Below, piece after piece: positions 17,032-44,744 of a stretch of 64,000 nucleotides of DNA; position 1 is the first letter of the stretch, and the number at the start of each line of letters is the position of its first letter. The notes beneath the pieces were generated by a model that was given only the letters and a program-made list of their open reading frames with translations, searched no databases and had not been told where the DNA came from. Source of the stretch: Roseimicrobium sp. ORNL1 (GTDB lineage: Bacteria > Verrucomicrobiota > Verrucomicrobiia > Verrucomicrobiales > Verrucomicrobiaceae); the NCBI RefSeq assembly GCF_011044495.1, contig NZ_CP049143.1:682001-746000 (forward strand), in the 5' to 3' direction. The translations under genes were made by a program, and so were the position numbers.

Positions 17032-17176
17032 CCCTGGGAGCGCTGGCCTCAGGCCGGCGTGGGCAAGCCGGGACGAGCTTCAATCTGCCTCGAAACGGGA
17101 TGGCACTCGCGACTTCAGATACTGCTTCACCTGATTGCACCCCAGAAACGCCGGCCAGAGGCCAGCGCTCCCAGGG
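17032..17176. repeat. inverted repeat, family member 1 (29-nt arms, 87-nt spacer)
   Basis: The left arm (17032-17060) begins CCCTGGGAGCGCTGG. The right arm (17148-17176) is its reverse complement with one mismatch and ends CCAGCGCTCCCAGGG. The right arm is identical over all 29 bases to the right arm of the element at 34198-34277, and the left arms differ at one base, while the spacers are unrelated. The element lies between two convergent gene ends. Confidence 0.92.
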
Positions 17177-34169: not shown

Positions 34170-34508
34170 GCCTCCACCTCGAATATCATCACTACAGCCC
34201 TGGGAGCGCTGGCCTCCGGCCGGCGTATTCACGTGGCCAGCGAATAACACGCCGGCCAGAGGCCAGCGCTCCCAGGGCCGGTGGACCTAACGCGTTCCGA
34301 GGACCATCACACACTGATGTGGTGTGATGCCACGGATAGTAAAAGACGAGATCTTGTGCACGAAACGTGGCTTCGCCAAAGTGGCTCACGCTGCCCTCAG
34401 CGTGAACCGTGGCAGGCCCCCTGAGGATGCCGTCCCCCACAACCGCAAACGTGCGAAGTCAGCGGCTTATCCAACGGATGATCTGCCGTTCTTCGATTGC
34501 ACAACAAT
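34170..34508. other. intergenic region with the REPIN-like repeat and two further hairpins
   Basis: These 339 bases lie between the convergent ends of the large hydrolase and the GyrB-like gene. They hold the inverted repeat at 34198-34277 and an 8-bp inverted repeat CATCACAC/GTGTGATG near 34305-34330. A CACGCTG/CAGCGTG hairpin lies near 34388-34406. No gene is supported. Confidence 0.6.
34198..34277. repeat. inverted repeat, family member 2 (29-nt arms, 22-nt spacer)
   Basis: The left arm (34198-34226) begins CCCTGGGAGCGCTGG and pairs with the right arm (34249-34277) except for one mismatch. The right arm is identical to that of the element at 17148-17176. The spacer (34227-34248) is short and unlike that of the other copy. 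Conserved arms around a variable spacer, between two convergent genes, fit a REPIN or similar non-autonomous element. Confidence 0.92.
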
Positions 34509-35504
34509 TCACAAAATCCCCGCTTCCCTCATCGCTTCCAAAACGACCTGGCGTACCTGACCACGCAACTCCTTATTGACGACCTTGGCTCGCATGGGAG
34601 CGGAGAAACGCGGCTCTTTCATGATGGCGCTGATCATCGCAACGGCGGGAGTCCAGTCCTTGCGCCGCAGCGCATCACGAAATCCATCCACATGCGTGCC
34701 ATGCAGACGAGTCCCAGTGCCGTTGCACCAGGAGAGCCATTGGCATTTCGCGGACGAACCCACTGCGGCGGCCTCCACGGTCAACTCATCCGACTCGTGC
34801 CGTACATGAAGCAACCTTGAAGGCTCGGAGGCATGGCACAGGTCTTCATTTTGTGATGCCAGGAACTGCACATAGTCCGCGAGCCCGCCGGGCGCGTGGA
34901 ATGTCTCATCGCCCAACTGGACCTTCATTCCCGGAAAGAGATGCGCCACATCAAACAACCGGCGCCGCTGCACATGCATGCGGGGCAGTGAGGCTTGGAG
35001 AACATCACGATCCGCCGTGAATGTTATCGATGTGCCTTTCGCGGAGGAGACGCTTGTTATGGGAGCGCCGACAATCTCTCCTTTGGCAAAGTGCTGTTCC
35101 CACCGTATTCCATTCCGGTGGGACACCACCTTGAGATTGGCGGAAAGGGCGTTCACCAACACCAGACCCACTCCGGTGGCATTCAAGTGTACGTGAGGAG
35201 CATGTCCATCTGCCGTCGGCGTGTCGTGCAGGTGGGTGAGCCAGTGCACCGCCTTGGGAACGGAATTCATTTCAACATGATCGAATGGCAGTCCAGGTCC
35301 ATCATCGCTCACCGAGATGCTGGTCCCGTTGATGGTGACACTGACTTTGGTGGCCTTTCTGGACAGGAAGAGATCGATGCTGTTAGCCACCAACTCGTAG
35401 ATGAGGTGCTCGATGCCTTGCTCGCACGGATCTCCGATGTACATGCCCGGTCGTTTGCGAATGGCTTCGACTGGGGAAAACCGCGGCGCGCGCTCGGGAT
35501 CCAT
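34509..35504 (-). CDS. stand-alone GyrB/ParE-like ATPase (GHKL plus transducer, no TOPRIM)
   Basis: The 331-residue protein starts MDPERAPRFSPVEAIRKRPG, continuing MYIGD, as GyrB proteins do. The GHKL motifs are present: N-box ELVANSID (catalytic Glu and Mg-ligand Asn kept), DDGPGLP, and the G-box NATGVGLVLVNALS. The lid region lacks the usual Gly-Gly-x-His and Lys. The transducer domain continues to EPRFSAPMRAKVVNKELRGQ and stops about 15 residues later. The QTK loop of GyrB is PMR here, so the Lys that contacts the gamma phosphate is Arg. The TOPRIM and C-terminal parts of a type IIA topoisomerase are absent, so it cannot support DNA cleavage alone. Start at 35504 avoids an unsupported 49-residue extension. 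Confidence 0.85.
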   Translation of the reverse strand: MDPERAPRFSPVEAIRKRPGMYIGDPCEQGIEHLIYELVANSIDLFLSRKATKVSVTINGTSISVSDDGPGLPFDHVEMNSVPKAVHWLTHLHDTPTADGHAPHVHLNATGVGLVLVNALSANLKVVSHRNGIRWEQHFAKGEIVGAPITSVSSAKGTSITFTADRDVLQASLPRMHVQRRRLFDVAHLFPGMKVQLGDETFHAPGGLADYVQFLASQNEDLCHASEPSRLLHVRHESDELTVEAAAVGSSAKCQWLSWCNGTGTRLHGTHVDGFRDALRRKDWTPAVAMISAIMKEPRFSAPMRAKVVNKELRGQVRQVVLEAMREAGIL

Positions 35505-35621: not shown

Positions 35622-36047
35622 ATGGAAGACGAAAGCGCAGCGTGGCTGCAACTGAAACGTGAGATACGTGTGCTCCGGGTTGGCTTGTTTGCGGTGTTGG
35701 GCACCCTGATGGCAGGGCTTCTAGTGGCAAATCTTGCCACCGTGCTGTTGCTGTCACCCATGGCGCGTGTTTTCGAGGACATGCTGGGGTCTGCGAGCAA
35801 GGCTCCCCAGCTCACGCAGATGGTTTTGTCCTATGGGAGGGTGTCTGCCGGCATGCTTCCTTTTCTGGTACTCACGCTGGTGTCTCTCCCTGCTTGTACC
35901 GTGATGGTGATGTATCGGCGTTCCCTCTGGCCGATCACAGTGATGGGTTTGGCCCTGATATTCCTCGCAATTCATGTTGTGGTCGTCTGGCTGGCCATGC
36001 TGATTCCCCTGGTGCAAATCATCCAGGGGATGAATGGCCGTCCTTGA
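35622..36047 (+). CDS. small membrane protein of unknown function
   Basis: The 141-residue product (start MEDESAAWLQLKREIRVLRV) has four hydrophobic helices: VGLFAVLGTLMAGLLVANLA, AGMLPFLVLTLVSLPACTVM, LWPITVMGLALIFLAIHVVV and WLAMLIPLVQIIQG. It begins with an acidic cytoplasmic tail. It is divergent from the GyrB-like ATPase and slightly overlaps or abuts the HAD phosphatase region downstream. Unknown family; could be a small transporter subunit or a toxin-like protein, but nothing supports either. Confidence 0.75.
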   Translation: MEDESAAWLQLKREIRVLRVGLFAVLGTLMAGLLVANLATVLLLSPMARVFEDMLGSASKAPQLTQMVLSYGRVSAGMLPFLVLTLVSLPACTVMVMYRRSLWPITVMGLALIFLAIHVVVVWLAMLIPLVQIIQGMNGRP

Positions 36048-36102
36048 GATGTCCATCCTCAGCTTGCAAATCGCGCTCACTGCCCGACCTTCCTTGCCCC
36101 CA

Positions 36103-36765
36103 ATGGCTCTACCAGCAGCGAAAGGCGGCGTGCGCGCCCTGATTTTTGATTTCGACGGCCTCATCCTCGATACCGAGGTGGCCATCTTTGATGCCTGGCG
36201 GGAGATCTATGAGGATCATGGAATTCCGCTCACCCTTGAAACATGGGCGCAGTACGTGGGCAGTGACTTCGACCCGAAGGTGGAGCTGGAGCAATTCCTC
36301 GGGCGCGCGCTGGACTGGGCGACCTTGACCGACAGGCGCCGCAAGAGGGTGAATGACATCCTGATGGACAAGCAACCCATGCCCGGCGTGCGCGAGCGAC
36401 TGCGGGAGGCGCATGAGCACGGCCTCGTGTGTGCCGTGGCCAGCAGCTCGAGCCACAGTTGGGTGGACGGCTGGGTCGACCGCCTGGAACTGCGGTCGTA
36501 CTTCAGCCACGTGAGTTGCCTGGAAGACACGGGCAAGGCCAAGCCGGATCCCAGCCTCTTTCTGCACGCGGCCGCCGCTTTGAGCGTGGACCCTGCGGAG
36601 GCTATTGTGCTGGAGGATTCGCTCAACGGTCTGCGCGCCGCTCATGCCGCCGGCATGCGCTGTGTGGTGGTGCCCTGTGATGTGACCCGGCACCTCGCCT
36701 TTGACGGCGCGTGGAAGCATCATCGCTCGATGGTGGAGTTCACCGTACCGGACCTGTTTGTGTAG
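36103..36765 (+). CDS. HAD-superfamily hydrolase, beta-phosphoglucomutase-like
   Basis: The 220-residue core has HAD motif I LIFDFDGLILDTE, motif II Ser-Ser in AVASSSSHSWVD, motif III Lys in DTGKAKPDPSLFL, and motif IV VLEDSLNGLRAAHAAGM. The cap domain follows motif I, as in subclass IA enzymes. This group includes beta-phosphoglucomutases and sugar-phosphate phosphatases; the substrate is not assignable. ATG at 36103 puts the first Asp about 16 residues from the N terminus as usual; earlier in-frame ATGs at 36034 and 36049 are possible. Confidence 0.9.
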   Translation: MALPAAKGGVRALIFDFDGLILDTEVAIFDAWREIYEDHGIPLTLETWAQYVGSDFDPKVELEQFLGRALDWATLTDRRRKRVNDILMDKQPMPGVRERLREAHEHGLVCAVASSSSHSWVDGWVDRLELRSYFSHVSCLEDTGKAKPDPSLFLHAAAALSVDPAEAIVLEDSLNGLRAAHAAGMRCVVVPCDVTRHLAFDGAWKHHRSMVEFTVPDLFV

Positions 36766-36837
36766 CCACGCGGAACGGCGGTTGCATTCGCCCGCCTCCC
36801 GTTCACACTGCGCCGCCCCCAAGGCGCTCTTTACCGC

Positions 36838-38193
36838 GTGACGAAAAACTTCAGCCTCTACCTCGCTCTTCGCTACTTGCGGCCGAAGCGGACCTTCGTG
36901 TCTGTCATCACGGTGATCTCCGTCCTCGGCGTGAGCCTCGGCGTCGCCCTGCTCATCGTGGTGATTGCGGTCATGGCCGGGTTCCACGCGCAGATGAAGG
37001 AACTCGCCGCCGGGTATGAGACCCACATCGAGGCGCAGGACCGTTACGGCACCTCCATGATGGATTCCAATCATCGCCCAAAGGATGCGACGGACAAACC
37101 ATGGCGCGAGATTCTGGAGCAAATCAAAAAGACTCCCGGCGTGGCCAGTGCCACGCCCATGGTGCGTGGCCTGCTCCTGGTGGAATCTGAGACCGGCATG
37201 TCCATCACTGCCATGTGGGGACTGGACGGCACCGATGGCAATCGTCTTGCGGCCAAGCACAAGGACTTCCTGAGAAAGGAGAAAGGCGCCTCCATGGAGC
37301 TTTCCGGAGACAGCATCGTGCTGGATTCCAAGCTGGCCGATCCCTGGGGACTCAAGGTGGGCGACACCATCACCGCATGGGCTCCGACCAATCTCAAGCA
37401 GATAGTAAACCTGACTCGGCAAATCGATGAGCTGCCTGAGGACCAAAAGCAAACGGCGTACAAACAGCTCAAGGATCTCACCATTCCCCAGGAGCTCACC
37501 ATCACCGGCATCATCGAGCCACCACAATTCCAAGATTCGAGCAAGGTGCCGCTGGCCATCGTACCTCTGGGGCGGGCTCAGGAAATGCGTGATCTCGGAG
37601 ACGGCATTTCCAGCATCGGCATCGAGTTGAACGAGCCCTACCAGGCCGGAGCGATTCGTGACCAGTTGATGAAGTCCGGTGTCATCCCTCCCGGCTGGGA
37701 TGCCTACACCTGGACAGAGGCCCACCAGGCTCTCTTCAGTGCGGTGCAGACTGAGCTCATGATGATGTATGTGATTCTCTTCTTCATCATGATTGTGGCT
37801 GCCTTCTGCGTGATGAACACCATGATCACCGTGACCGTGCAGAAGCGGCGTGAGATTGGCATCGTGGCCGCCCTCGGCTCTCGTGTCGGCCAGACCATGT
37901 CGGTATTCATCATCCAAGGCATGATCGTGGGCGCGGCGGGTGCCGTGCTGGGCCTCGGCCTCGGCATCCTGATCGCAAGCAACATCAATACGATCAAAAA
38001 CAAGCTGGGCGAGTGGATGGGCATGGACATGTTCAATCCAGAAATCTACGGCTTGATCGATCTGCCCGCCAAAATCCTCCCGGGCGACGTGGCCTTCATC
38101 TGCGGCAGTGCCTTCCTCCTCAGCTCCCTCGCCTCTGTCATCCCCGCCTGGCTCGCCGCGAAGGTGGAACCGGCGCAGGCGTTGCGGGATTGA
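36838..38193 (+). CDS. LolC/LolE-like ABC transporter permease
   Basis: The GTG start gives MTKNFSLYLALRYLRPKRTF, then TM1 and a large periplasmic domain (about 45-290). FtsX-type TM helices follow, including MMMYVILFFIMIVAAFCVMN and MVGVA-like segments. The ARSRVxxTMSVF-like loop (GSRVGQTMSVFIIQGMIVGA) and the C-terminal VIPAWLAAKVEPAQALR are LolC/LolE hallmarks. These permeases extract lipoproteins from the inner membrane with the ATPase LolD. No ATPase gene lies next to it, so it may use a distant LolD. It is followed by tRNA-Gln. Confidence 0.9.
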   Translation: MTKNFSLYLALRYLRPKRTFVSVITVISVLGVSLGVALLIVVIAVMAGFHAQMKELAAGYETHIEAQDRYGTSMMDSNHRPKDATDKPWREILEQIKKTPGVASATPMVRGLLLVESETGMSITAMWGLDGTDGNRLAAKHKDFLRKEKGASMELSGDSIVLDSKLADPWGLKVGDTITAWAPTNLKQIVNLTRQIDELPEDQKQTAYKQLKDLTIPQELTITGIIEPPQFQDSSKVPLAIVPLGRAQEMRDLGDGISSIGIELNEPYQAGAIRDQLMKSGVIPPGWDAYTWTEAHQALFSAVQTELMMMYVILFFIMIVAAFCVMNTMITVTVQKRREIGIVAALGSRVGQTMSVFIIQGMIVGAAGAVLGLGLGILIASNINTIKNKLGEWMGMDMFNPEIYGLIDLPAKILPGDVAFICGSAFLLSSLASVIPAWLAAKVEPAQALRD

Positions 38194-38278
38194 AGCCTCG
38201 TGTGTCGCTCCTGACGTCAATTCCTCCTTGCACGCAGGGGCAAACCGGGTACTTTGGGCCTCCTTTTTCCCCACCAAC

Positions 38279-38352
38279 TGCCACGTGGTGTAACGGTAGC
38301 ACAAGAGATTTTGGTTCTCTTTGTTAAGGTTCGAATCCTTACGTGGTAGCCA
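38279..38352 (+). tRNA. tRNA-Gln (anticodon UUG)
   Basis: Cloverleaf elements: acceptor TGCCACG/CGTGGTA (with G-U pairs), D-loop TAACGGTAGCA, anticodon stem AGAGA/TCTCT with loop TTTTGGT (anticodon TTG). T-loop GGTTCGAATCC, discriminator G and encoded CCA at 38350-38352 follow. Confidence 0.95.
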
Positions 38353-38709
38353 CTTTGATATCGAGGGAGGTATCAGGTGGCGAGACTCTCTTGCGCAAGG
38401 ACAGCGCCTGTCCACATCTTCCGAGGAGAGGGCAAAAAGCGTTCGGTAACGAGAATTTGTCTCAATAACGCTCATCTTTCGATTGCTGTTGAGATATTGT
38501 CGCAATAGAGGTGCAGCCTCTCGAAGCTCTCTGCTCAAGAGTTCTGCTGCTAAAGACCTCAACATCAGTCCAACATGACGCGCTCATTCGAGCATTCGCT
38601 GTTTCTCTGACCTGCAACTTACCGTCCCAGCCCCTTCCGGGCTGATTTCCCAAACCTCCACCATTCCAGCACCCACCTCCGGCACCGAAGGTGACCTTCA
38701 GTCTTCCTG
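38353..38709. other. intergenic region after tRNA-Gln, no gene supported
   Basis: These 357 bases lie between tRNA-Gln(UUG) and the CBM9/DUF5916 gene. A hairpin TGATATC/GGTATCA (about 38356-38376) follows the tRNA at once but lacks a T tract. The rest shows no motif or credible small ORF; promoter elements for the downstream gene may lie in its AT-richer middle (38445-38520). Confidence 0.4.
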
Positions 38710-40878
38710 GTGATTTTCTTCCTGCGTCAGCACTTCCTTGTCCTCATTGGCTGCCTGCTCAGTCTGGAGCATCATCTGCATGCTGAGAGTCCGCGGGTGA
38801 AGGCTTTGGATTTGAAGGAAGGTATCGCGCCGCCGGAGCTTGATGGGGTGCTGAATGATCCCTGCTGGGAAAAGGCCGCGGCAGTCACCGCCTTCAGCCA
38901 GGTTTTCCCCAAGGAGGGCGCGACCCCGAGCGCGGCCACGGAGGTGAAGTTTGCCCACGATGGGTGCTACTTGTACATCGCCATCCGCGCGGAGGACAAG
39001 GAAACCGACCGCATCACCGCGAGGGAGCTGCAGCGTGACTCCTTCGAAGATGAATCCTTCCCCGCCGATGACCACGTGCAGATCGCGCTGGATCCGTTTG
39101 GTAGGGAGCGTGACGGCTTTCTCTTCGCCGTGAATCCCCTCGGCGCCATGACAGATGGCCGCATCGAGCACGGCGGCTCCACTGCGAAGGAGTGGGATGG
39201 TATCTGGGATGCGCGTGCGCAGCGCGATGCCCAGGGCTGGACCGCCGAGCTGCGCATCCCTTTCACCACATTGAGCTTCGACCCGGCAAAGGATGCATGG
39301 GGTGTGAACGTGCAGCGTGTCATTCGCCGAAAGGAGGAGATGATTCGCTGGACCCAGCCCTCCCAATCACGCGAAGGCGACTGGCTGGATGACATCGCCC
39401 AGCTCGAAGGCATGAGCGGGCTCAATCAGGGCCTCGGTATCGAACTCAAGCCGTACACCGTCTTCCGCCATCTCGATGAAGTGAATGGTGGAAGCTCCAC
39501 GGAACTGCGCGCCGGTTTCGATGCGAACTGGCTCATCACTCCCGCGCTCACTGCCACGCTCACCGTGAACACCGACTTCGCCGAGGCGGAGGTGGATGAC
39601 CGGCAGATCAATCTCACACGCTTCCCACTCTTCTTCCCGGAGAAGCGAGACTTCTTCCTGAGGGATGCTCCTTATTTCAACTTCCCCTACGGCACCGCGC
39701 TGATGATGCCCTTCTTCTCGCGCACCATCGGGCGCAGCGAAGACGGCGAGCCGGTGGACATTCTGGTAGGCGCGAAGTTCACCGGTCGCGCAGGGCCATA
39801 CACCATCGGCATTCTGGACGTGCAGCAGGATGCGCACGACGGTGTCGATGAGAAGAATCTCCTCGTGGCACGTGTCACTCGCGAACTGGCCGCAGACCAC
39901 ACGCTGGGCGCTATCATCACCCATGGCGACCCATATTCGAATGGAGACAATACCGTGCTGGGCCTCGACTACCAGTGGCGTACCTCCACCTTCATGGGGG
40001 ACAAAAATTTTGACACGCAGCTCTGGGCTATCGGAAGTGACAGCAGCGGTTTTGGTACGGGCGAATCCATCGGTGCTTCCTTTGGCTACACCAATCAGCC
40101 ATGGTTCTTGTACGGCATCTTCGCCCAGATTGGCGAGGAGTTCTATCCGGCCATGGGGTACCTCGCGCGGCGGGGCGTGCGGGAGTACTACTTCGACGTC
40201 ACCTATCAGTGGCAAATTAACGAAGGTGGCCTGCGCACCTTTGACCTGCAGGTGCTGCCCTTCATCATCACCCGCTTGGATGGCGAGATCGAGACCGCGG
40301 AAGTCATGCTGCCTGGTATGCGCTGGACCTGGGACAGCGGCGGTGAACTGGCCTTCTGGCTGAACTTCAAAGAAGAGCAGTTCTTTGAACCCTTCGAGAT
40401 TCAACCCGGTGTGATGGTACCCGTGGGCGACTACAAATTCCGCAGCGTGCAGATGGAATACGAAGGCGCACCTTCACGCGTGATTACTCCCAATGTGGAA
40501 GTGGAGGTTGGCGAGTTTTTGAATGGAGACATTGTCGCGTGGAATGTGGGCGTAGCGTATCGCCCCTCGCCGTATCTTCACCTCGGTCTATCCTATGCCG
40601 AGCAGGCCGTGGATCTGCCGCAGGGGGAATTCACCACACGTCTCGCTTCGGTGAATCTCCGTCTGGCCTTCTCCCCGCGCCTCTCGTGGAACACCCTCGC
40701 GCAATACGACAACGAATCAGACAGCTTCGGCGTCAATAGCCGTATCCGCTGGACTGTGCGTCCCGGTACAGACATCTACCTCGTGCTGAACCAGGGTTAC
40801 GTGGTGGAGGAGCGCAACCGCCTGCGCCGCGTGGGCACGGAAGCCGCGCTTAAGGCGGGAGTGACGTGGAGGTTCTGA
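38710..40878 (+). CDS. CBM9/DUF5916-family outer-membrane protein
   Basis: GTG start; signal peptide about residues 1-25 (LVLIGCLLSLEHHLHAE). The N-terminal domain (about 30-225) is a family-9 carbohydrate-binding-like fold: PPELDGVLNDPCWEKAAAVT, then DGCYLYIAIRAEDKETD and FLFAVNPLGAMTDGRIE. The remaining 480 residues are DUF5916-like, with ITPALTATLTVNTDFAEAEV, FPEKRDFFLRDA and repeated amphipathic strands, ending in a terminal aromatic (VTWRF). This pattern predicts an outer-membrane barrel. Such proteins often accompany polysaccharide utilisation; no SusC/D pair is present here. Confidence 0.88.
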   Translation: MIFFLRQHFLVLIGCLLSLEHHLHAESPRVKALDLKEGIAPPELDGVLNDPCWEKAAAVTAFSQVFPKEGATPSAATEVKFAHDGCYLYIAIRAEDKETDRITARELQRDSFEDESFPADDHVQIALDPFGRERDGFLFAVNPLGAMTDGRIEHGGSTAKEWDGIWDARAQRDAQGWTAELRIPFTTLSFDPAKDAWGVNVQRVIRRKEEMIRWTQPSQSREGDWLDDIAQLEGMSGLNQGLGIELKPYTVFRHLDEVNGGSSTELRAGFDANWLITPALTATLTVNTDFAEAEVDDRQINLTRFPLFFPEKRDFFLRDAPYFNFPYGTALMMPFFSRTIGRSEDGEPVDILVGAKFTGRAGPYTIGILDVQQDAHDGVDEKNLLVARVTRELAADHTLGAIITHGDPYSNGDNTVLGLDYQWRTSTFMGDKNFDTQLWAIGSDSSGFGTGESIGASFGYTNQPWFLYGIFAQIGEEFYPAMGYLARRGVREYYFDVTYQWQINEGGLRTFDLQVLPFIITRLDGEIETAEVMLPGMRWTWDSGGELAFWLNFKEEQFFEPFEIQPGVMVPVGDYKFRSVQMEYEGAPSRVITPNVEVEVGEFLNGDIVAWNVGVAYRPSPYLHLGLSYAEQAVDLPQGEFTTRLASVNLRLAFSPRLSWNTLAQYDNESDSFGVNSRIRWTVRPGTDIYLVLNQGYVVEERNRLRRVGTEAALKAGVTWRF

Positions 40879-40894
40879 TCTGCGGCGAACGCCA

Positions 40895-42103
40895 CTACTC
40901 CAGCTTCCCAAACATGATGCGTTCTTTCCGCTCATTGGAAGAATCACCTTGCGTGACCGCCACATAGATGGAGCCATTGTATTCGGCGAAGACAGGATAC
41001 TGGAAGGACTTGGTCGTTTCGAAACGGTACTTCCGTTCCCACTGCTTCCCATCTTTGGAAACCTCCACATTGAAGACAGAGCGGCTCACCCCATCAATGC
41101 GGGTGCCTTCCTGCCAGCCCAAGTAGTAGACATCGCCAAACTTGTCGAGCGTGGGCTTGGAACTGGCGCCATTCGTGACGAAGGACCGCTCTTCGTTTTC
41201 TGTCCACTTCCTTCCATCCATGCTGGTGGCAAAGGTGTAGTTGCGAGTTCCGCCTTCCTGCCGGCAAATGGCCAGCCACGTGCCACCAGGCAACTGATGC
41301 GCTGCTGATTCAGAGAGCTTCAGATCCGTGGGCTCGTGGAAATGTCCGAGCACTTCGAAGGTATCGAGCGAGGGATGCACCAAGGCAAGCGCGTTCTGGC
41401 AGATGGGATAGTTGTTCAGCGTGACATAGGTCTTGCCGCCGATGGTCTTGAAGTTGTCGAAGATGTAGAGCCCGAAGTCCTTTGCAGGATGCTTGAAGCC
41501 CTGAGCGACTGCGTCCTCGTAGAAATATTGTGGCTGCATGTCATGCGTGCCGCTGGCAGTCTTCAGCTTCACCTTGTGGATGCGATTAGTGAAGCACATG
41601 CGGTCCATGTCGAAGTCCGTGTACCACATCTGGGACTGGCGCTCGCCAGGGGATTCACTGGCAAAGTAGCAGCGTAGGGTCTTCTTGTCCTTCTGGATGA
41701 TGCGGGGCACGAAGCACGCGCCGACGGGCAGCGTCTCATTTTCGAAGACCTGCTCTCCCCGGGCGAAGTCGATGACATTTTCTACCTCTTGCGTCTTCAG
41801 GTTCACGATCGAGAGGGTCACGTAGACATAGGGCCACTTCGCTGCCTCGCCGGGCTGCACGTCATTCGCCTCGGCCACAATCCACGCCCGGTCCCGGGCC
41901 AGGACCATGCCGGCGTCGTGCGCCCCCTTCACGCGGGGAGCCGTGGTATTGACCAGTCCCTGCATCACCCGGTCGCCCGCCTCCTTGGGGTTCCACCCGG
42001 GAGGGAGGAGCGAAGCCGGATTTTCTTGGCCACGGACCGCGGAGGCCCCCAGAAACAGGGCGATCAGCGCGGGAAAACAGGAGCGGATGGAAATCGGAAG
42101 CAT
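40895..42103 (-). CDS. secreted sialidase/BNR-fold protein
   Basis: ATG at 42103 gives a signal peptide (LPISIRSCFPALIALFLGAS) and 402 residues. Repeated six-bladed-propeller-like stretches include Asp-box-like TSMDGRKWTENEE and VSKDGKQWERKYRFE. It also has YFASESPGERQSQMWYTDFD and SAAHQLPGGTWLAICR. No obvious catalytic Arg triad was confirmed, so enzymatic activity is uncertain. It sits convergent to the CBM9/DUF5916 gene and just downstream, in reverse, of tRNA-Gln(CUG). Role may be binding or hydrolysis of a glycan. Confidence 0.75.
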   Translation of the reverse strand: MLPISIRSCFPALIALFLGASAVRGQENPASLLPPGWNPKEAGDRVMQGLVNTTAPRVKGAHDAGMVLARDRAWIVAEANDVQPGEAAKWPYVYVTLSIVNLKTQEVENVIDFARGEQVFENETLPVGACFVPRIIQKDKKTLRCYFASESPGERQSQMWYTDFDMDRMCFTNRIHKVKLKTASGTHDMQPQYFYEDAVAQGFKHPAKDFGLYIFDNFKTIGGKTYVTLNNYPICQNALALVHPSLDTFEVLGHFHEPTDLKLSESAAHQLPGGTWLAICRQEGGTRNYTFATSMDGRKWTENEERSFVTNGASSKPTLDKFGDVYYLGWQEGTRIDGVSRSVFNVEVSKDGKQWERKYRFETTKSFQYPVFAEYNGSIYVAVTQGDSSNERKERIMFGKLE

Positions 42104-42196
42104 GCGGGAGGGAAAAGAAAGACGGCGCGACCAAGGGAATTTGCACACCGGAGTTGCCAAGCCCGGCGGATTGGTTATGGTCACCCTCCAGCCGAT

Positions 42197-42270
42197 TGCC
42201 GCGTAGTGTAACGGTAGCACGTGGGATTCTGACTCCCCCAGTTAAGGTTCGAATCCTTACGCGGTAGCCA
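42197..42270 (+). tRNA. tRNA-Gln (anticodon CUG)
   Basis: Acceptor TGCCGCG/CGCGGTA, D-loop TAACGGTAGCA, anticodon loop TTCTGAC (anticodon CTG) on a TGGGA/TCCCC-type stem, T-loop GGTTCGAATCC, discriminator G and encoded CCA at 42268-42270. The T-arm is identical to the tRNA-Gln(UUG) at 38.3 kb. Confidence 0.95.
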
Positions 42271-42293
42271 CTCTCTGAGAGACAGAGAGTTTT
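42270..42293 (+). terminator. intrinsic terminator of tRNA-Gln(CUG)
   Basis: ACTCTCT pairs with AGAGAGT around a 7-base loop and is followed by TTT, beginning on the last base of the encoded CCA. Short but correctly placed. Confidence 0.55.
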
Positions 42294-42360
42294 GGCAACG
42301 GCAGCGGTGTGTGGCCTCTGCCTTCTGAGGTAGATACTTTGGAACCTCGAAGCCCGCGGC

Positions 42361-43731
42361 CTACAGCTTCCACCCCGCGCGATACTCGCGTGTGAGCAGC
42401 TTGTTGGCACCCTCGTCATCCGTCTTTCCGGCGACGTGATCCCACGTGATTTTCTTCCCGGTACGGTAGGCGACACCGCCGAGGTGGTTGGCGACGGTGA
42501 GGAGGCCGCTGTAGCTGAAGTCGCACGAGGATTTCTTCCCGGCCATGGCCGCCTCGACCCACTCCTTCTGGTGCCCAGGCGAGTCGGGGATGAAGGGCTT
42601 GGGTGGGGTGAAGCCCTTGAACTTCTCTTCCGGCATCAACGTGTGCTTGCCGTAGTCGGCGAAGAGCATGCCTTTCTCACCGACGAAGAGGACTCCGTTT
42701 TTCACGGAGTTCGGCAGGAGGCCGTCCTTGATGGGCTTGGGCACCGCTGTGCCCTGGTACCAGTGCATGGTTACGGGGGCGAGGTCGCCACGTTTCCCGT
42801 AAGTCCAGGTGGCGGTCATGTTCGCAGGAGCAATCTCCTTGTGCGGAGGCGGGCCGCTGGCCTCGATGGTCTTTGGGTGGTCGAGTTTCAGCGCCCAGAA
42901 GGGAAGATCATTCCAGTGGCTGCCAAGGTCGCTCATGGTGCCGTTGGCAAAGTCCCAATAGCGATACCAGCGCGGGCCGGGCAGGTAGATGTCATGATAC
43001 TCACGCATGGGCGCGGGCCCGATCCAGAGGTCCCAGTCAATCTGCGGAGGTACAGCCATGCCCTTCTCCGGCATCTTGTCGATGTAGTCCAGCAGGCCTG
43101 CCTTCACGAAGAGGTCATCATTCTTCTCCGCCTCAGCACGCGTCTGCATGCCCCACGAACGGCCCACCCACACATGCACTTCACCCACCTGGCCGATGGC
43201 GCCGCTTTGAATCAATTCTACCACTCGATGATAGTTCGCGGTGGCATGCATTTGGGTGCCCATCTGCGTGGTCACATCCGCCTTCTTCGCCTCTTCCATC
43301 ACCACGCGGGCCTCATGCACATCGCGCGTGAGGGGCTTTTCACAATACACGTGCTTCTTCGCGCGGAGCGCCGGCACCACGGCAAAGGCATGCGTGTGCT
43401 CCGTGGTACTCACCACCACAGCATCGAGGTCATCCATCTTCGTGTGGAACTCACGGTAGTCGCGATACTTCCGCGCCTGCGGGTGTGAGCCAGCGGCGTA
43501 TTCGAGATTCTTCTCATTCACATCGCAGAGCGCCACGATGTCGGAAATCTGCGACACCTCCTTGAGGTTGCTCGCGCCACGACCACCGCTGCCGATGACG
43601 CCCACATTCAACCGACCATTGGGCGAGCGGCTGGAAACGACCGCCGGGAAGCCCAGCACCGAGGCCCCGGTTGCCAGAACGGACTGCTGCAGGAAACGAC
43701 GGCGCGAGGAAGTGGGGATGCGTGGGTTCAT
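42361..43731 (-). CDS. TAT-exported Gfo/Idh/MocA-family oxidoreductase
   Basis: The N terminus carries a twin-arginine signal (SSRRRFLQQSVLATGASVLG). The Rossmann fold follows with LNVGVIGSGGRGASNL (about residues 38-52), VVVSTTEHTHAFAVV and the family EKPLTRDVHEA motif. A central substrate domain holds EVHVWVGRSWGM. Members oxidise or reduce sugars and inositols with NAD(P). The TAT signal and the 456-residue length match the planctomycete/verrucomicrobial periplasmic branch. The gene lies between the tRNA-Gln and an aldo/keto reductase in a sugar-related run. Confidence 0.92.
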   Translation of the reverse strand: MNPRIPTSSRRRFLQQSVLATGASVLGFPAVVSSRSPNGRLNVGVIGSGGRGASNLKEVSQISDIVALCDVNEKNLEYAAGSHPQARKYRDYREFHTKMDDLDAVVVSTTEHTHAFAVVPALRAKKHVYCEKPLTRDVHEARVVMEEAKKADVTTQMGTQMHATANYHRVVELIQSGAIGQVGEVHVWVGRSWGMQTRAEAEKNDDLFVKAGLLDYIDKMPEKGMAVPPQIDWDLWIGPAPMREYHDIYLPGPRWYRYWDFANGTMSDLGSHWNDLPFWALKLDHPKTIEASGPPPHKEIAPANMTATWTYGKRGDLAPVTMHWYQGTAVPKPIKDGLLPNSVKNGVLFVGEKGMLFADYGKHTLMPEEKFKGFTPPKPFIPDSPGHQKEWVEAAMAGKKSSCDFSYSGLLTVANHLGGVAYRTGKKITWDHVAGKTDDEGANKLLTREYRAGWKL

Positions 43732-43832
43732 GGCGAGAAGGCGTGAGTCCAAAGGAACGGAACAACCCAAGGTGTTTGGTCAGCACTTTTGTGATGAACC
43801 TCGCTCTATCCGTGCTGCCTGAAAATCCTGCC

Positions 43833-44744
43833 TTACGGTATCTGCCTTCCCTGCGCCGCCTCCCAAAGCGCATACCAATCCTCACGCTCCAGTGTGATCT
43901 CCACCGAAGCCGCCGCACTCTGGATGCGCTCAATCTTGTTCGTGCCGAGGATGGGCAGGGGCCGACTGGGATGCGCGAGAATCCAGGCGTAGGCGAGCTG
44001 CTCCAGCGAGGCGCCGTTGTAGCGCGGGGCCATCTTGTCTGCTGCGTCCTTCAGCCGGACAGCCGCCTCATTCTTCGGATCAAAGATACGACCCTGCGCC
44101 ATCGGACTCCACGCCATGGGGGCGATGCCGAGTTGCTCGCACTGGCTGAAGGTGCCGTCGTAGATCGGATCCATGTGCAGCAGGTGGTATTCGAGCTGGT
44201 TCGTCACCAGCGGCTGCTCCATCTGCGAGTTCAGCAGGCTGAACTGGTGCACATTATAGTTGGATACACCCGTGCTGCGTACCTTGCCGGAGCGCGCGAG
44301 ATCATTGAGACCCTTCGCCGTGTCGTCTGCGCGCGTGAGCCAGTCGGGGCGATGCACCAGCAGCAGCTCCACGTGATCCGTGCCGAGGAAGCGCAGGGAC
44401 TTCTCCAGGCTCTTCACCATGCGCGCGCCGGTCGCGTTGTAGTGCGCGGTGCGGCGTTCGGGGTGGAATTTGTTTGGCACGTAGATGCCCGCCTTGGTCA
44501 CGATTTCCAGCTTGTCCCTCAGGCCTGGGGTGAGCGCGAGCGCACGGCCCAGCGCCTCTTCCACTTCATAGCCGCCGTAGATCTCCGCGGTGTCCAGCGT
44601 GGTCATGCCGAGCTCCAGGCAGACCTGAATCCGGCGGTTCAGCTCCTGTGGCGTGGGCGTCGGATCATCAATGATGCGCCACGTGCCGTACGCGATGCGG
44701 GAGAACTCAGGACTGTGCGGAGCGAGGCGGATGCGGGGAATCAT
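43833..44744 (-). CDS. aldo/keto reductase, YdhF-like
   Basis: The 303-residue TIM-barrel protein has a full catalytic tetrad: Asp and Tyr in MTTLDTAEIYGGYEVEEALG, Lys in IVTKAGIYVP and His in LLLVHRPDWL. The cofactor segment STGVSNYNVHQ and the late ILGTNKIERIQSA complete the pattern. It reduces a carbonyl with NADPH; substrate unknown. YdhF-type members are cytosolic oxidoreductases. The ATG at 44744 gives the family length. Confidence 0.92.
   Translation of the reverse strand: MIPRIRLAPHSPEFSRIAYGTWRIIDDPTPTPQELNRRIQVCLELGMTTLDTAEIYGGYEVEEALGRALALTPGLRDKLEIVTKAGIYVPNKFHPERRTAHYNATGARMVKSLEKSLRFLGTDHVELLLVHRPDWLTRADDTAKGLNDLARSGKVRSTGVSNYNVHQFSLLNSQMEQPLVTNQLEYHLLHMDPIYDGTFSQCEQLGIAPMAWSPMAQGRIFDPKNEAAVRLKDAADKMAPRYNGASLEQLAYAWILAHPSRPLPILGTNKIERIQSAAASVEITLEREDWYALWEAAQGRQIP

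Follow-up and report, generated by a model that had tools for sequence, protein, structure and literature searches.

A stand-alone GyrB-type ATPase and transducer module with a rewritten ATP lid in Verrucomicrobiota

The window (the whole stretch of DNA analysed, 64,000 nucleotides) carries on its minus strand a frame that is uninterrupted for 331 codons at 34509-35504 and encodes a GyrB-type ATPase and transducer; an alternative, longer version of this frame starts at a TTG at 35651. The gene, its parts and its divergent neighbour are laid out as follows.

34509..35504, minus strand: stand-alone GyrB-type ATPase/transducer gene, 331 aa (frame, Pfam, NCBIfam, alignment, AlphaFold2 and solved-fold comparison)
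34899..35474, minus strand: GHKL ATPase domain, residues about 11-202 (Pfam and alignment)
35166..35228, minus strand: rewritten ATP lid, residues 93-113 (HDTPTADGHAPHVHLNATGVG) (signature in five close members and alignment)
34512..34898, minus strand: shortened transducer, residues 203-331, with two deletions relative to E. coli GyrB (alignment and structure comparison)
34590..34598, minus strand: QTK-loop equivalent, residues 303-305, PMR (alignment)
35622-36047, plus strand: membrane-protein gene, divergent neighbour of the 331-aa gene

Pfam recognised in the 331-aa protein a HATPase_c domain (5.9e-10; 40 bits, above the gathering score of 26.4) and DNA_gyraseB (2.4e-9, the first 73 of 173 positions only), and no DNA-binding domain besides these GyrB parts. 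The NCBIfam GyrB models cover residues 12-281 at up to 3.7e-51 without reaching the curated GyrB score (best 174 bits, cut-off 740), and sequence matches in the PDB are mainly GyrB and ParE ATPase chains. A likeness of this extent lies well outside what chance would produce. Neither a TOPRIM nor a C-terminal domain was found in the frame or by Pfam. The same genome (7.96 Mb) also encodes a full-length GyrB (875 aa) and a full-length ParE-like protein (666 aa), which account for its two further matches. The 331-aa gene is real and encodes a GyrB-type GHKL ATPase with a shortened transducer and without TOPRIM; this GyrB-type identity is well supported, and the mechanism set out further below is one that we infer.

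A sequence-only reading of this DNA had described the gene as reproducing the N-terminal half of GyrB almost exactly. The clean gene and its kinship to that half stand; the exactness does not, the window protein being 23-36% identical to 69 'ordinary' GyrB-like rows (53 bacterial, taken from 80 contig-scan loci, and 16 viral, taken from 31 IMG/VR loci, with full length looked at for part of them), the N-terminal brace being gone and the transducer short. Aligned with E. coli GyrB, window Glu37, Asn41, Asp67, Gly71 and Thr158 correspond to Glu42, Asn46, Asp73, Gly77 and Thr165 (E. coli numbering is used from here on unless stated), and the catalytic Glu, Asn and Asp of the GHKL domain are present by both Pfam and alignment, as had been claimed. 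Ten residues are kept in all five close members known from the order (Glu42, Asn46, Asp49, Asp73, Gly77, Pro79, Gly117, Gly119, Gly164 and Thr165); three of these proteins carry Lys and two carry Arg at position 337, and the Arg136 equivalent is retained in four. The glycine box, reported as kept, is so at Gly77, Gly117 and Gly119 and has been replaced at Gly113 and Gly114, the latter in 5/5 close members.

The same five proteins share a set of departures from GyrB, namely Thr for Lys103, Pro for Tyr109, His for Lys110, His for Ser112, Leu for Gly113 and Pro for Gln335, all at positions that hardly vary among the ordinary rows (K103 and Y109 in 68/69 each, K110 in 57/69, S112 and G113 in 65/69 each, G114 in 69/69, and both Q335 and K337 in all 67 non-gap rows). 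The observation that the lid lacks GyrB-typical residues is thereby borne out at Lys103, Tyr109, Ser112 and Gly113. A lid signature, [ST]PTAD[GD]H[AS]PHxHL, is common to all five members and was drawn from these same five sequences. At the QTK position the window protein indeed reads PMR, as first noted, compared with P-T-[KR] in the other four. Arg76 has been replaced in every member, and Tyr5 and Ile10 of the N-terminal brace are missing or replaced in every one, with the true starts of two of the genes (in genomes G053 and G716) being uncertain. Also replaced in the close members is the equivalent of Ser121, which in E. coli GyrB is a side-chain ligand of a K+ site (PMC4388272, in the part of the text accessible to us). 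A transducer is present, as had been stated, and lacks some 22 residues that its E. coli counterpart has at 293-314 (numbered backwards from Gln335), plus some 6 that precede them. The last residue of the window protein aligns with E. coli residue 363, short of the 43-kDa boundary, so that the exit helices leading toward TOPRIM are missing; the truncation had been placed on the domain boundary, which is accurate only as an approximation.

An AlphaFold2 model of the window protein, computed from an alignment of that protein with the 69 ordinary rows and no close relative, reached a mean pLDDT of 88.5 and a pTM of 0.87. Its nearest solved folds are the E. coli GyrB 43-kDa entries 4prx (Z 39.2, rmsd 2.2 over 326 residues, 28% identity) and 1ei1 (Z 37.5, again with 326 residues aligned), and the predicted fold is that of GyrB43, the fragment with which the sequence-only reading had proposed a comparison. 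The likeness extends to Glu42, Asn46, Asp73, Gly77, Thr165 and the positive residue at 337. The differences are the missing brace, the changes at Lys103 (to Thr), Tyr109 (to Pro) and Gln335 (to Pro), the shorter transducer, and the fact that the window gene stops before TOPRIM by nature. A metal site in the lid, suggested by its histidines, was considered and set aside: the model is poor there (residues 100-103 have pLDDT <50), and most of the myxobacterial relatives described below lack His101.

Genes of this kind are rare. A search of 57 relatives returned matches in all 57, nearly all of them ordinary GyrB or ParE, together with a second stand-alone gene of the same kind, in G053, whose product is about 39-41% identical to the window protein. 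With a two-sequence profile (E up to 1e-55), 5 of 386 genomes of the order carry the stand-alone gene, own genome included (G000, G053, G713, G747 and G716); the family contributes 3 of 68, likewise with its own, leaving 65 without a match at the threshold used, and in a sample of the class the gene was found in its own genome only (1/335). In a sample of the phylum, matches at E up to 1e-45 come from 13 of 387 genomes; 12 lie in frames of 804-962 aa, and the window gene is the only stand-alone match of the 13. As scoring covered a subset of the candidates in each genome (as few as 5-6), the absence counts are approximate. The lid pattern HDTPTAD occurs in 3 of 384 genomes of the class, in the window gene and in two unrelated large proteins. 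A contig scan gave at least 80 GyrB-like loci of 27-33% identity, with no close orthologue of the window gene among the matches listed. A profile-guided scan of IMG/VR yielded 31 GyrB-like loci of at most 32% identity, irrespective of a TOPRIM half. The strict lid pattern had no match in IMG/VR; a looser one hit 24 contigs, of which two had a GyrB-like match (about 22-25%), in both cases away from the pattern site. Absence of orthologues from relatives, or frameshifts in them, had been named as evidence that would count against a functional gene; the first holds for 65 of the 68 family genomes. None of the five frames contains an internal stop, and the unusual residues are common to the close members despite 38-49% identity. 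A phage origin was rejected, the PHROG matches of three members going to topoisomerase II families only, as was a role in defence, PADLOC giving no match for three members or for the membrane protein. Two shorter GyrB-like proteins in the same order (205 aa, L149 2898-3515, minus strand, in G008; 230 aa, L150 2802-3494, plus strand, in G038) comprise no more than the GHKL part, in which HPLAEL stands in place of the catalytic Glu/Asn region and the Asp is kept, and may represent a second, inactive stand-alone family.

The surroundings of the gene are informative in two genomes. In both G713 and G747 it lies between a kinase gene (HisKA_3, HATPase_c and a weak F5/8-type match) and a response regulator gene (receiver and LuxR-type domains), with gaps of 29 and 13 bases around it in G747 and a 29-base gap and an overlap in G713, where the contig ends inside the regulator. 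Among the 20 closest-kinase loci in the genus (L192-L211, at least 57% identity), the regulator adjoins the kinase without the gene in all 18 others; in one of these the contig ends inside the regulator. Outside this set, G777, with its kinase split over two contigs, likewise has the regulator adjoining it. Kinase and regulator overlap in ATGCYTGA in 12 of the 13 genomes without the gene that were inspected at base level. Comparison of the kinase-regulator junctions (L192/L195) shows the 8 bases ATGCCTGA at both ends of the inserted gene in G747, where they double as stop and start of the adjoining genes; in G713 the end of the inserted gene overlaps the regulator start likewise. Since this 8-base repeat flanks the insertion, clean loss of the gene would be easy. 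The kinases of G713 and G747 are not sisters in the kinase tree, which implies either repeated clean losses of the gene or its exchange.

Between these two genomes the synonymous divergence of the gene (dS 0.517) is similar to that of the kinase (0.479; both NG86). Its dN/dS is 0.155 (NG86) or 0.183 (YN00), compared with 0.150 and 0.047, respectively, for the kinase, and the differences fall mainly on third codon positions (36, 20 and 91 at the first, second and third). Judged from these substitutions the gene is constrained, perhaps less so than the kinase; the dN/dS values rest on a single pair because dS to the window gene is saturated. The earlier view that the gene is not an evident remnant agrees with these values and with the stop-free frames in four other genomes of the order. 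Elsewhere the stand-alone gene has a sulfatase gene (G053) or pieces of ThuA (G716) among its neighbours, and a myxobacterial relative (G1045) adjoins or, depending on the choice of start codon, overlaps a same-strand GAF-GGDEF gene; TGT-methyltransferase fusions lie near the relatives in two more (G1051 and G1049). The neighbours are thus not conserved across genomes, and a link to signalling rests on two related genomes and one neighbour in a distant relative.

The sequence-only reading had pictured a system together with the divergent membrane protein, and we rejected this partner: in G001, of the same genus, the membrane-protein gene occupies the same place beside HAD and LolC-type genes, and this gene and those downstream of it are kept there without the GyrB-like gene, so that it is not a fixed partner. 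The nucleotide matches between the two genomes (82% and 88%) run over window 36053-44735, and to the left of the membrane-protein gene G001 matches nothing in the window. The membrane protein is 36% identical to its G001 counterpart, compared with 84% and 87% for the neighbouring HAD and LolC-type proteins; its gene either changes quickly or has been replaced.

A looser related group is present in the Myxococcaceae, the family of the L035 genome ('Myxococcaceae bacterium'), in which a search at 1e-5 gave a match for 95 of 96 genomes. At least five of these genomes (G970, G1051, G1052, G1049 and G1045) have their best match in a frame of 358-491 aa; G1048 also carries a stand-alone relative, which brings the number to at least six, and G1049 has at least two copies. 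Four of the seven myxobacterial proteins inspected keep the PTxDG...HxH lid (G970, G1052, G1045 and the 359-aa copy of G1049), the G1051 protein has AT instead of PT, and in the G1048 protein and the 373-aa copy of G1049 most of the lid is gone, as is the Asn46 equivalent. Five of the seven read P-T-[KR] at the QTK position. The catalytic Glu is Asp in the G1045 relative, and the G1051 relative keeps a GyrB-like arm before the ATPase domain that is missing from the five close members. With lid, Asn46 or Glu lost in some, not all of this group can work as the switch proposed below. In a 36-row tree computed without viral rows, the Verrucomicrobial and the myxobacterial groups each form one clade (100/99 and 100/97) and are joined at 99/94 to the exclusion of full-length GyrB and ParE; both stems are long, so the join is suggestive only and may partly reflect long-branch attraction. 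Several rows, chiefly viral, sat on very long branches in an earlier tree, one of them (L170) having been read at a wrong position; in that tree the full-length GyrB of the window's own genome groups with GyrB sequences from named Verrucomicrobia, the basis for placing the organism in Verrucomicrobiota. In one myxobacterial gene the stand-alone GyrB half is fused to an N-terminal DUF7919 (L269 8290-9741, minus strand), and in G1049 two long and one shortened GyrB-half frames form a cluster (L272 6746-10408, minus strand).

Stand-alone GyrB halves as such are already known from deposits. Akin to the window protein, PDB entry 3cwv ('DNA gyrase, B subunit, truncated', Myxococcus xanthus, 2008) is a GyrB ATPase/transducer chain, of 369 aa, with FAGPTK at the QTK position and a fold that matches the window model with Z 30.6 over 301 residues; at 25% identity, however, its sequence is no closer than most GyrB/ParE chains. 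Considered as a direct member of the family, it matches the window protein at E 2.6e-11 and a five-member profile at 7.7e-25 with its lid left unaligned, is not listed up to E 10 by a lid query, and comes last at E 5.6e-8 with one of two myxobacterial relatives while not being listed at 1e-6 with the other. No paper in the literature searched mentions 3cwv. Linear plasmids of Streptomyces (NZ_CP108274 and NZ_CP108712) encode an 'ATP-binding protein' that is likewise a stand-alone GyrB N-terminal half, of about 390 aa, but with Asn46 changed to Tyr, the brace kept, another lid, Ser for Gln335 and a later end; these proteins fall on the stand-alone side in the 36-row tree (96/96) and with full-length GyrB in the earlier one. 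One of the two genes (L031 3312-4490 and L032 4920-6110) adjoins a helicase-domain gene and has the end of its record about 3.3 kb away.

Published relatives outside this group resemble the window protein in part. According to the accessible text of PMC2845627, Arabidopsis GYRB3 is also derived from GyrB and was shown not to be a gyrase subunit, but it lacks the GHKL part and has the transducer and a SANT-like domain; the shorter GyrB paralogue of planctomycetes, by contrast, has a TOPRIM domain (PMC8567305, from the portion available). Archaeal topoisomerase VI B, a type IIB enzyme that we liken by published description alone, has no glutamine in its QTK-loop equivalent, and no hydrolysis-driven change was observed for it (PMC4159350, in the excerpt at hand). 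The accessible part of a 2024 review of protein inhibitors of gyrase names none that is GyrB-like (PMC10886550). A description of the lid-variant family was not found in the literature searched (mostly without subscription journals), in which the family appears new.

What such a protein might do can be approached through the residues that carry the GyrB mechanism. The triphosphate side-chain contacts of E. coli GyrB are Asn46, Lys103, Gln335 and Lys337 (PMC4388272, as accessible). That ATP is hydrolysed by dimers only is explained by the brace that the other subunit contributes; Gln335 is a two-state switch that couples phosphate release to a 12-degree domain swing (both from the available part of PMC4159350). 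In the five close members two of the four triphosphate contacts are kept, namely Asn46 and, as Lys or Arg, position 337, the brace is lost and the switch is replaced, from which we infer ATP binding, slow turnover and no gyrase stroke; the two-component operon in two genomes suggests a regulatory partner. The reading we favour, tentatively, is a stand-alone regulatory ATP-binding protein derived from the N-terminal half of a type IIA topoisomerase B subunit and acting as a nucleotide-gated switch. ATP would most likely be bound in the GyrB pocket with window Glu37 as the base, under a histidine-rich lid (Pro-His-x-His) in place of the lysine-bearing lid of GyrB; hydrolysis would be slow and would drive no gyrase-type 12-degree swing; ATP-bound and empty states would expose different surfaces of the transducer to a protein partner. 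In the weakest step, that partner could be a signalling protein in those genomes that carry the gene within a two-component operon. A bolder version strikes us as unlikely: a gyrase-derived lineage of Verrucomicrobiota and Myxococcaceae would have turned from DNA motor into an ATP-gated signalling protein, with a His-based, possibly metal- or phosphate-sensing lid, the glutamine switch removed and, in some lineages, a place within two-component or GGDEF operons. The GyrB ATPase module is a much-studied drug target, and accounts of how it works lean on a handful of residues that hardly ever vary; a family with the catalytic Glu intact but the lid Lys, the lid Tyr and the Gln switch exchanged is a natural experiment on the role of each, and would demonstrate a use for the module beyond topoisomerases.

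It is about as improbable as that bolder version that the protein tunes the gyrase or topoisomerase IV of its own cell, for instance through mixed N-gate dimers with GyrB or capture of a shared partner. Full GyrB and ParE-like genes in the same genome and the GyrB43-like predicted fold would suit such a role; yet GyrB meets GyrA at its TOPRIM and C-terminal parts, both missing from the protein, all five members lack or have replaced the swapped N-terminal brace by which the GyrB dimer is held together, and 65 of 68 family genomes are without a match. Less probable is an independent DNA clamp operated by ATP, after the manner of the GyrB43 fragment, MutL or MORC. Such a clamp had been the first suggestion made from the sequence, and it draws on the largely retained ATPase site and the partly retained transducer; it is weakened by the loss of the N-terminal brace, of Lys103 and of Gln335, and further by the shortened transducer and the lack of a Pfam DNA-binding domain besides the GyrB parts.

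Marginally less probable again is that the gene is in the course of being lost, or persists as a passenger of no benefit to its host: the gene is rare and often absent at the same site, the repeat flanking the kinase-operon insertion makes clean loss easy, and two distant relatives look degenerate, against which stand a dN/dS of 0.155-0.183 in one pair, stop-free frames in five genomes and the same unusual residues kept at 38-49% identity. We rate lower still, as distinctly doubtful, a role as a decoy or in resistance, the protein binding inhibitors directed at the ATP site of GyrB. Asn46, Asp73, Thr165 and Arg136 of GyrB bind such inhibitors, and the equivalents of the first three are kept in 5/5 members and that of Arg136 in 4/5; a patchy distribution, too, fits an accessory resistance gene. 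Arg76, however, is replaced in all five, and Pfam recognised no resistance or antibiotic gene among the neighbours examined. That the N-terminal half is one subunit of a split topoisomerase is very improbable because no GyrB/ParE C-terminal half was found nearby, whether in the 64-kb window, around the genes of nine relatives (where an adjoining TOPRIM gene had been proposed as the sign of a split enzyme) or in the matching G001 stretch, the best stray matches having E 0.46 and 0.75 in a search that recovered both positive-control loci and in which two of the contigs covered were just 3-4.4 kb long.

Downstream of the 331-aa gene, window 34197-34278 holds a 33-base inverted repeat that is 94% complementary; its 15-base core recurs in the window as an inverted pair at 17036 and 17158 (17036-17172), giving 4 matches where 0.02 are expected.
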